DNA from: Adlercreutzia sp. ZJ176
Lineage (GTDB): Bacteria; Actinomycetota; Coriobacteriia; Coriobacteriales; Eggerthellaceae
Assembly (NCBI RefSeq): GCF_011038975.1
Contig: NZ_JAAKEC010000016.1
Location: 1 to 64,000, forward strand
Length of the DNA: 64,000 nucleotides
Direction: 5' to 3'
The translations under genes and the position numbers were made by a program. Of this stretch, positions 27,212 through 29,164 are shown one piece after another (position 1 is the stretch's first letter; every line of letters begins with the position of its first letter). Under the pieces are notes generated by a model. That model had not been told where the DNA came from. It did no database searches and was given only the letters and a program-made list of their open reading frames with translations.

Positions 27212-28102
27212 ATGTTCCAAGGACTTCAAGCTGACCAGGTCAGAGGCGCGGTCGAGGCCCTGCTCTTCGTCACCGATGAGCCGGTGGGCACCATCACGTT
27301 GGCCGAGATGCTCGAGTGCGACGTCGCGCTCGTGGAGGACGCGCTCGTAAGCCTGCGCAACGCGCTCGAGTTCGAGAACCGCGGCATCCAGCTGCGCGAG
27401 GTGGCGGGCGGATGGCGGCTGTTCACGCACCCGGCCTACCACGAGCTGATCGAGAAGTACGTGCTGTCGTGGGACACGCGCAAGCTGTCGGCGGCGGCTA
27501 TGGAGACGCTCGCCATCGTGGCTTATACGCAGCCGGTCACGCGCGCGGGTGTGGCGAGCGTGCGCGGCGTGAACTCCGACAGCTCCATCAACTCGCTGGT
27601 GGAGAAGGGGCTTCTGCGCGAGGTGGGCACGGCCGACACGCCGGGCAACCCCGTGCTCTACGGCACCACGCGCGGCTTTCTGGAGAGGTTCGGCCTGCGC
27701 TCCGTGGCCGACCTGCCGGATCTGGCCGACTTCGCGCCCGACGAGGAGACGCGGCGGCTGATCATGCAGCGTCTGAGCGCCACGCGCGACGACGCGGCGG
27801 TGTCCGACGCGCAGGCGCGCGCCATGGCCGAGGCGCTCGTGTACGGCGACGAGGAGGACGGCCCGGACGCGGGCGTGCCTGCGGGCGGCGAAGAGGCTGA
27901 GGGCGGTGCGGAAGCTGCGAGCGCGGTGGACGTCCCAGGCGCTGCGGGCGGTGTGAACGTGCCGGGTGTCGCGGGTGCGCCGGGAGCTGCGTCCACGGGC
28001 CGGTCGACCGAGGCCATGTTCGCCGAAGCCATCGCGAGCACGCTCGGCGTGGTCGACAAGATCGACTTCGACGCCCTCGTTTTCGAAACCGATGACGAAT
28101 AA
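27212..28102 (+). CDS. scpB: Segregation and condensation protein B
   Basis: A 296-residue protein. Residues 7-185 contain two winged-helix domains (AVEALLFVTDEPVGTITLAE, LSAAAMETLAIVAYTQPVTR, GLLREVGTADTPGNPVLYGT) matching ScpB. The C-terminal 100 residues are a Gly/Ala/acidic extension, probably disordered, ending DKIDFDALVFETDDE. ScpB dimers bind the middle of ScpA. The stop is 13 bases before a 26-bp inverted repeat. Confidence 0.94.
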   Translation: MFQGLQADQVRGAVEALLFVTDEPVGTITLAEMLECDVALVEDALVSLRNALEFENRGIQLREVAGGWRLFTHPAYHELIEKYVLSWDTRKLSAAAMETLAIVAYTQPVTRAGVASVRGVNSDSSINSLVEKGLLREVGTADTPGNPVLYGTTRGFLERFGLRSVADLPDLADFAPDEETRRLIMQRLSATRDDAAVSDAQARAMAEALVYGDEEDGPDAGVPAGGEEAEGGAEAASAVDVPGAAGGVNVPGVAGAPGAASTGRSTEAMFAEAIASTLGVVDKIDFDALVFETDDE

Positions 28103-28114
28103 CTGCGAGCAGAG

Positions 28115-28288
28115 GTGCGAGAAACACGCGATCTGATACCGCGTGAGAGCGTCTTGGCATGCCTTCGTCGTATTATCTTGTAGAGAGAATGGTTCTGGCC
28201 AGGTGTTTGTTTTCGACATAATTGCATGGGTGGAGGTCGACGGCGTCATTTTGGCTCGCGACGGTATCAGATCGCGTGTTTCTCGCAC
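28115..28288. mobile_element. 174-bp element with perfect 26-bp terminal inverted repeats
   Basis: Bases 28115-28140 (from gtgcgagaaacacgcgat to gatacc) are the exact reverse complement of 28263-28288. The 122 bases between are AT-richer than their neighbours. They include TTGGCA and TATTAT promoter-like hexamers and no protein-coding frame of note. No clear target-site duplication flanks the arms. Options are a MITE-type miniature element, an invertible promoter segment (inverton) or a terminator-like structure. It separates scpB from rluB in an otherwise uninterrupted operon. Confidence 0.6.
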
Positions 28289-28327
28289 GTCAGGCGCCTC
28301 CAACTTGCATTCTAAGGGTGGTGCCCG

Positions 28328-29164
28328 GTGAATGAGATGCGCTTGCAGAAGTTCCTGGCGCGCGCGGGGGTGGCCTCGCGGCGCGGGTCCGAGGAGCTCA
28401 TCAGCGCCGGGCGCGTGCGCGTGAACGGCGCGTGCGTGACTGAGCTGGGCAGCAAGGTGGACGCCGACGTTGACGCGGTGGAGGTCGACGGCGTGCGCGT
28501 GGAGCTGCCGCGCGAGAGCGTGACCCTCATGCTGCACAAGCCCGCGGGCTACGTGACCACCATGTCCGACCCGCAGGGGCGCCCGACCGTCGCCGAGCTC
28601 GTGCCGGCGGGGGAGGGCCGCTTCGCGGGGCTCTACCCGGTAGGGCGCCTCGACGCCGACACCACGGGGCTTCTGCTCTTCTCCACCGACGGCGAGCTGG
28701 GCAACGCGCTCCTGCACCCGCGCCGGCACGTGACCAAGCGCTACGTGGCGCTCGTGGAGGGCGCGCCCGGCGCGCGCGACGTCGAGCGGCTGCGCCGCGG
28801 CGTGCAGCTTTCCGACGGCATGACGCTTCCGGCCGAGGTGTCTGTGCTTGAGGGGAAGGCGGCGAAGCGCGCCGCGGCGCTCATCGGCGAGGGGCGCGCT
28901 TCGAGCGGGAACGCCCGCCGGCACACGGGCAAGCGCTCGCGCGCGGCCCTCGAGCGCGCCGGCGCGTGCAGCTACGTGGAGGTGGGCCTGCGCGAGGGGC
29001 GCAAGCGCCAGGTGCGCCGCATGCTCGAGGCAGTGGGCTGCCCCGTGGTGGCCTTGCACCGCGCGACGTTCGGCCCGCTTGAGCTGGGGAATCTTCCCCG
29101 CGGGCAGTGGCGTGAGCTTACGGGCGACGAGGTGGCGGCGCTGCGGGAGGCCGTGCGGGGGTAG
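28328..29164 (+). CDS. rluB: 23S rRNA pseudouridine synthase, RsuA/RluB family
   Basis: A 278-residue protein. The N-terminal S4 domain (MRLQKFLARAGVASRRGSEE, LISAGRVRVNG) recognises RNA. The catalytic domain has YPVGRLDADTTGLLLFSTDG, whose Asp attacks the uracil, and LREGRKRQVRRMLEAVGCPV. A 20-residue basic insert around 195 is unusual. GTG 28328 begins the conserved start; ATG 28337 is an alternative. Confidence 0.93.
   Translation: MNEMRLQKFLARAGVASRRGSEELISAGRVRVNGACVTELGSKVDADVDAVEVDGVRVELPRESVTLMLHKPAGYVTTMSDPQGRPTVAELVPAGEGRFAGLYPVGRLDADTTGLLLFSTDGELGNALLHPRRHVTKRYVALVEGAPGARDVERLRRGVQLSDGMTLPAEVSVLEGKAAKRAAALIGEGRASSGNARRHTGKRSRAALERAGACSYVEVGLREGRKRQVRRMLEAVGCPVVALHRATFGPLELGNLPRGQWRELTGDEVAALREAVRG

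Follow-up and report, generated by a model that had tools for sequence, protein, structure and literature searches.

What kind of element lies between scpB and rluB in Adlercreutzia sp. ZJ176? In the window, as we call the whole 64,000-nucleotide stretch of DNA that was analyzed, a left arm (28115–28141, plus strand) and a right arm (28262–28288, minus strand) form a perfect 27-bp reverse-complementary pair, separated by 120 bp for a total length of 174 bp; the arms reach 30 bp if one mismatch is allowed. An earlier note had divided the same 174 bp into perfect 26-bp repeats around a 122-bp, AT-rich middle with promoter-like hexamers, and had proposed either a MITE or an invertible promoter. 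The inverted repeats are clearly present, and the interior is indeed lower in G+C than the window (52% versus 67%).

The Inverted Repeat and Its Setting

The left arm contains a conserved core, GCGAGAAACACGCGATCTGATACC, at 28117–28140. It is followed by a 55-bp left spacer (28141–28195), a central motif, TGGCCAGGTGTTTG (28196–28209, plus strand), that matches TGACCAGGGGTTTT at 11 of 14 positions and is identical in the orthologue, and a 53-bp right spacer (28210–28262); both spacers are free in sequence and in phase in length. Exact 14-mer inverted pairs with loops of 20–300 bp number 39 in the window, compared with 0, 1, 0, 0, and 0 in five mononucleotide shuffles, and 14 of the 39 are the arithmetic yield of one perfect 27-bp pair, with the remainder lying elsewhere. 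Pfam agrees with the neighbors named in the earlier note: scpB upstream (27212–28102, plus strand; PF04079) and, downstream and with a GTG start, an rluB-type pseudouridine synthase gene (28328–29164, plus strand; PF00849, pseudouridine synthase, and PF01479, S4 domain), with ScpA also encoded in the neighborhood. Both neighbors look incidental, because other copies of the element adjoin unrelated genes and one lies inside an iorA-like gene.

A promoter scan of the window copy did recover one sigma-70-like match (9/12, on the minus strand and directed away from rluB; shuffles expect 0.1), but its second hexamer, ATTATC, reads ATTGTC in the orthologue (plus-strand letters), so that no conserved promoter was found by the scan and this single weak match is lost. 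The predicted RNA fold of the copy is strong (z −7.7), as follows from its perfect arms, and a search of Rfam over 27500–29000 returned no RNA family in the element, its sole match (SorX, E 0.95) falling outside.

A Family of Thirteen Elements in Two Species

The arms recur elsewhere in the genome, as the earlier note had proposed to check. When a 22-mer was searched with up to three mismatches in 138 genomes of the family, 26 arms were found in ZJ176 (G000) and 26 in Adlercreutzia sp. ZJ473 (G002), in both cases 13 on either strand, and none in the other 136 genomes, among them a third genome of the same genus that is 85% complete (G001). All 26 arms of each genome are paired within 13 elements, 12 facing inward and one outward, leaving no solo arms. 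The family elements possess terminal inverted repeats. A scan with GAGAAACNCGCGATCTGATACC of 84,980 species, each represented by a single genome and possibly omitting records near the window's own genome, matched only ZJ473. No element or relative with the same ends was found in viral contig, phage, or plasmid collections, nor was a parent element sharing the arms found in G000, G002, the other family genomes, or the viral contigs, phages, and plasmids searched. A narrow literature search found no paper on such elements.

Several weaker matches were rejected. An IMG/VR match to the paired pattern (L041) is an AT-rich stretch with only the inner 10-mers in common and was taken as chance. An outer-arm pattern matched eight of 395 genomes of the order, two of them being G000 and G002; the matches in the other six, G200, G202, G231, G316, G325, and G336, have no inner arm GATCTGATACC in the sequences listed and were likewise dropped, as was an outer-arm match at G000:C11:32757.

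Each genome has 12 of its 13 elements at loci common to G000 and G002. The exceptions are C1b, present in G000 only and with no matching flank in G002, and C108, present in G002 only and with one flank found in G000. Insertion-free alleles were also found in a relative: G001 lacks the element at the iorA, C11, and C1b loci, but these empty sites are too diverged to align and to give exact ends, and no direct repeat that might represent a target-site duplication was noticed at the element ends. In G001, the stretch between scpB and rluB falls on two contig ends (the ends of L055 and L053; G001:C43 and C95) that hold another hairpin repeat, GTGAACACGGGGACGTAGCCCTGTTCAC, which we take to be REP-like; this repeat fills the gap and breaks the assembly there.

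Individual members deserve mention. In both species, C10 is contained in an open reading frame that continues uninterrupted across the element. The host frame encodes Pfam domains TPP_enzyme_C, POR_N, and Fer4, which are those of indolepyruvate ferredoxin oxidoreductase alpha, and we take the gene to be iorA. The iorA-like gene of G001 has a much shorter linker at this position, and linker length varies widely among other relatives too. At C47, a DUF559-like gene sits together with a GrpB gene between two elements (L021:1276–3635, G000:C47; L045:1493–3846, G002:C43), and no enzyme was found among these genes (the DUF559-like match, E 0.0038, is below Pfam's cut-off). The G000 pair has mosaic halves, the left 88% and the right 33% alike, and its G002 counterparts are nearly identical by eye, a comparison that suggests conversion between the neighbors. 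Finally, the outward-arm element, one per genome (L024:1199–1311, G000:C44; L057:1008–1121, G002:C110), has a gap of the same size, 61 bp, in the two species. The gap encloses a motif-like TGACCTGG as well as a partial third arm, and the element does not fit the three-block scheme described below.

Three Blocks at Helical Spacing

Most elements consist of three conserved blocks: the two inverted arms and a central, asymmetric 14-bp motif near TGAYCWGSGGTTTT. Measured from the inner arm edge, GATACC, the motif begins at 44, 54, or 55 and stops 42–44 or 53 short of the other arm, and half-spacers of 44 or 54–55 (left) and 42–44 or 53 (right) characterize 11 of the 12 inward G000 elements, all 11 with an in-phase motif. 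These lengths are whole turns of B-DNA. The left and right combinations seen are 44+42, 44+53, 54+42, 55+43, and 55+53, so the two halves vary independently. The lengths cluster with a period near 10.5 (R 0.91–0.99), and random lengths drawn uniformly over the same range, admittedly a simple null, matched this clustering 0–10 times in 200,000 simulations, according to the set used; the clustering persists once loci with related left halves are dropped. The outward-arm element (C44a/C110) was included in orthologue counts and kept out of the phase, arm-logo, and coupling tests, and C1a was kept out of the half-spacer tests. C108 was included in total-length tests and entered by hand in the half-spacer counts at an in-phase offset, that of its second-best match (8/14); the period simulations on halves used only the nine G000 elements with at least 11 motif matches, leaving C108 out.

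The central motif was picked by eye from the same elements on which it is tested, and with that reservation a match of at least 11/14 to TGACCAGGGGTTTT is found in nine of 12 inward elements of G000 and eight of 12 in G002, compared with 27 of 3,600 trials with shuffled G000 interiors. C2 (9/14) and C11 (10/14) have a weak motif that is in phase, C1a alone of the 12 inward elements has none, and the best matches in G002:C48 and G002:C108 are off phase.

Half-spacers from different loci show near-random identity, with a median of 27.5% over 55 pairs, and it is for this reason that the spacer lengths appear to have outlived the spacer sequence. Part of the length pattern may nonetheless reflect common descent, since four of 55 pairs of left halves (and none of 55 right) are still more than 50% identical.

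Conservation at Fixed Loci

Comparison of G000 and G002 at 12 orthologous pairs revealed 20 substitutions in 576 arm positions (3.5%; 17/576 if the outward element is cut otherwise), compared with 190 in 1256 for interiors (~15%) and 470 in 3245 for flanks (~15%). The central motif, over ten pairs, had six substitutions in 140 positions (4.3%), versus 184 in 1116 for the remainder of the interior (p=3e-5). Arms and motif thus evolve about fourfold more slowly than interiors and flanks at fixed loci. Indels numbered six in interiors versus 80 in flanks (12 pairs, p=2.2e-6), where gap counts depend on the aligner and the flanks are a mixture of coding and non-coding DNA. Interior length is identical in 11 of the 12 pairs, with small indels canceling out in C2 and C10start. 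The remaining pair, C47a, differs by 1 bp, and conversion may account for this, because the G002 counterpart closely resembles its neighbor.

The arms are nearly invariant in sequence, not in pairing alone. Orthologous arms have two paired changes (C11 and C47b), and mismatched arm pairs are kept in both species at C46 and C10. Left and right arms also agree above chance at the variable positions 6, 7, and 9 of the core (p 0.003–0.02) and in the outer arm (p 0.004–0.04), not further out (p 0.39–0.52 by cells), in tests where the two species are non-independent. Such coupling could arise from recombination, template-switch repair, or pairing. In respect of the dyad-symmetric 26-bp sites with a 2-bp core of Hin-type systems, the best internal dyad seen by eye in the arm, GGTnnnAGA..TCTnnnACC, is weak.

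Inversion and Recombinases

Inversion appears possible in view of one sibling, not the window copy. In one of 12 orthologues, G000:C2, the G002 interior runs the opposite way when the flanks are aligned; the remaining 11, the window copy included, have the same orientation in both species. C2 indicates that elements can undergo inversion or template switching between their arms, misassembly being an alternative. A count of one in 12 has a probability of 0.003 under free flipping, and frequent inversion of the elements is not supported.

The search for site-specific recombinases gave seven, one, and nine matches to PF00589 and two, two, and five to PF00239 in G000, G001, and G002, respectively. 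Three are common to G000 and G002: tyrosine recombinases at C46/C30 (96% identical; the G001 relative is 65–66%) and C33/C29 (93%; best G001 match 41%), and a serine recombinase at C1/C67 (92%; G001 relatives 61–64%), in a comparison that left out G000:C12 (tyrosine), G002:C11a–c (serine), and G002:C52. The earlier note had proposed to look for arms beside a recombinase; of the recombinases compared here, none is tied to the family's arms.

At the C1/C67 locus, a small serine recombinase gene has inverted sites of its own, AAAAGGTAGACTTTT, after it (L164:1504–2311, G000:C1; L163:1504–2504, G002:C67). These sites are unlike the window family in sequence, and in G000 their 18-nt arms enclose 100 nt; the G002 site region is rearranged relative to G000, being duplicated and inverted in part (122-nt inverted copies, 98%). 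This locus is likely a self-acting inverton distinct from the window family. It was considered as a family member, having a G-rich center, and was not called one because its distances misfit the family phases. In G001, a related serine recombinase at C43 is followed by a site-like CTCGAAAACCTAGACTTTTCCGAG and a diverged copy 139 bp on (L165:2216–2388), the 13/15 motif match between the two being too weak alone, and a second small serine recombinase in G000 (C12) has a similar site-like AAAAGGTGTACTTTT nearby (L167:1235–1249).

Alternative Explanations

It is conceivable, if unlikely in our estimate, that the family consists of invertons that flip in the living population, the arms serving as crossover sites and the central motif as a recombinase enhancer in the manner of Hin. 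The inverted C2 interior would be expected, as would the agreement of left and right arms at positions 6, 7, and 9, which a crossover core would require. In these genomes there is also a small serine recombinase that has different inverted sites of its own, about 100 nt apart and rearranged between species. Against this, only one orthologue of 12 differs in orientation, the recombinases common to the two species show no tie to the arms, and the coupling extends into the outer arm and is equally expected from template-switch repair. The invertible promoter of the earlier note is not supported: a stable orientation at the window copy and a promoter-like match that is lost in the orthologue argue against a promoter switch.

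A more improbable source of the family is an old miniature mobile element, a MITE or another kind, that dispersed a single time in the common ancestor of the two species and is now decaying. Dispersal as 13 copies with inverted ends, absence from G001 at the loci examined, and the insertion of one copy in a coding gene are what such an element would leave behind. Decay is difficult to reconcile with conservation in place, where arms and center change slowly and spacers keep their length without their sequence, and this tells against the earlier note's MITE. Moreover, the interiors of the copies are mostly unrelated in sequence, no target duplication was seen (the empty sites being too diverged), no relative with these ends was found in viral contigs, phages, or plasmids, and the sharing of 12 of 13 loci gives no sign of recent movement. 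Least probable of all, in our view, is that the arms act as RNA, forming a hairpin that serves as an RNase III site, sRNA, or attenuator. The strong predicted fold, the two paired changes, and the left–right coupling would all be accommodated, but the fold score follows from perfect arms, no Rfam family was found, the arms are nearly invariant rather than merely paired, and the mismatches at C46 and C10 are kept in both species. The independent 10–11-bp steps of the two halves, needless for a hairpin, argue further against it.

Phased DNA-Loop Sites as the Favored Reading

We lean, with modest confidence, toward a family of lineage-restricted chromosomal protein-synapsis (DNA-loop) sites under selection, loop formation being suggested by sequence patterns. 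Conserved arms and motif, together with length-fixed and sequence-free spacers, fit the needs of a closed nucleoprotein loop, and the putative protein sites are helically spaced as in a phased DNA-loop site, given a motif chosen by eye and a simple null. The geometry would resemble, by analogy, that of a Hin-type invertasome or a repressor loop. In such a scheme, a sequence-specific protein would bind each arm and pair the two on the same helical face, the middle would be bent or docked by another factor sitting at the central motif, and the ~170-bp element would close into a small loop. Its role would be chiefly structural or regulatory, and strand exchange (inversion) would be rare. The recombinase and enzyme search of G000, G001, and G002 found no arm-binding protein.

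A bolder proposal, which we offer as possible but rather doubtful, is that of a previously undescribed bacterial system, in which a DNA-binding protein particular to the lineage would close 13 dispersed micro-loops, kept by selection, for chromosome organization or regulation, each built of two arms and a bend site, with spacers that change freely in sequence and, in length, only by whole helical turns. If the reading of the family as phased sites is true, loop-forming sites would be recognizable from sequence alone, with no need of the protein, and a new looping protein could be sought in a concrete way in gut Eggerthellaceae.

Comparison with Known Systems

In the GalR/HU repressor loop of E. 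coli, two palindromic operators lie about 110 bp apart at one promoter locus, with a bending protein between them. Unlike this loop, the present family is dispersed and, judging from the promoter scan of the window copy, not tied to promoters. CREE, confined to one genus, resemble it in having 26-bp inverted ends and discrete lengths (~105 or ~155 bp in total), some with an internal IHF site, as described in the available portion of the source (PMC2649163). As that text presents them, they differ in having a conserved core sequence, at least 100 copies, placement that differs between genomes, target duplications, and solo ends, whereas the family has interiors unrelated between loci, 13 copies of which 12 are fixed, and no solo arms. 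REPINs also possess two inverted sequences of ~20 bp around a diverse spacer and persist vertically, but according to the accessible text they are replicated by a RAYT transposase and accompanied by decaying singlets (PMC8049555); the family lacks solo arms and has quantized spacers.

The Hin-type system (hix – Fis enhancer – hix) is closer in design, with two inverted protein sites of ~26 bp, a bending-protein site, and DNA looping in which helical phasing matters, as the excerpted source has it (PMC3798978). Hin, whose proteins are known and whose enhancer acts at a distance, inverts a segment of ~1 kb at a single locus, whereas the family comprises dispersed ~170-bp elements, with no enzyme tied to them in the recombinase search, in which both spacers are length-fixed and orientation is mostly stable. 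The IESs of Paramecium are, in the part of the source consulted, short, located in and between genes, and of lengths that follow the helical repeat, which has been read as DNA-loop formation, and HU and ~50-bp loops are also mentioned there (PMC3464196). The family is like them in its shortness, its placement both in and between genes, and its helical steps of length; unlike it, IESs are eukaryotic, number in the tens of thousands, are excised, and decay rapidly in sequence, with no central motif mentioned in that part of the text. Hin invertasomes and IESs, so far as these partial sources go, are precedents for phase-dependent loops (PMC3798978, PMC3464196). Helical phasing itself is known, on the same partial account, from engineered helical-twist experiments and from IES lengths (PMC3464196), and evolution appears to have run such an experiment here, at 13 loci, in two bacterial species, and with two spacers per element.
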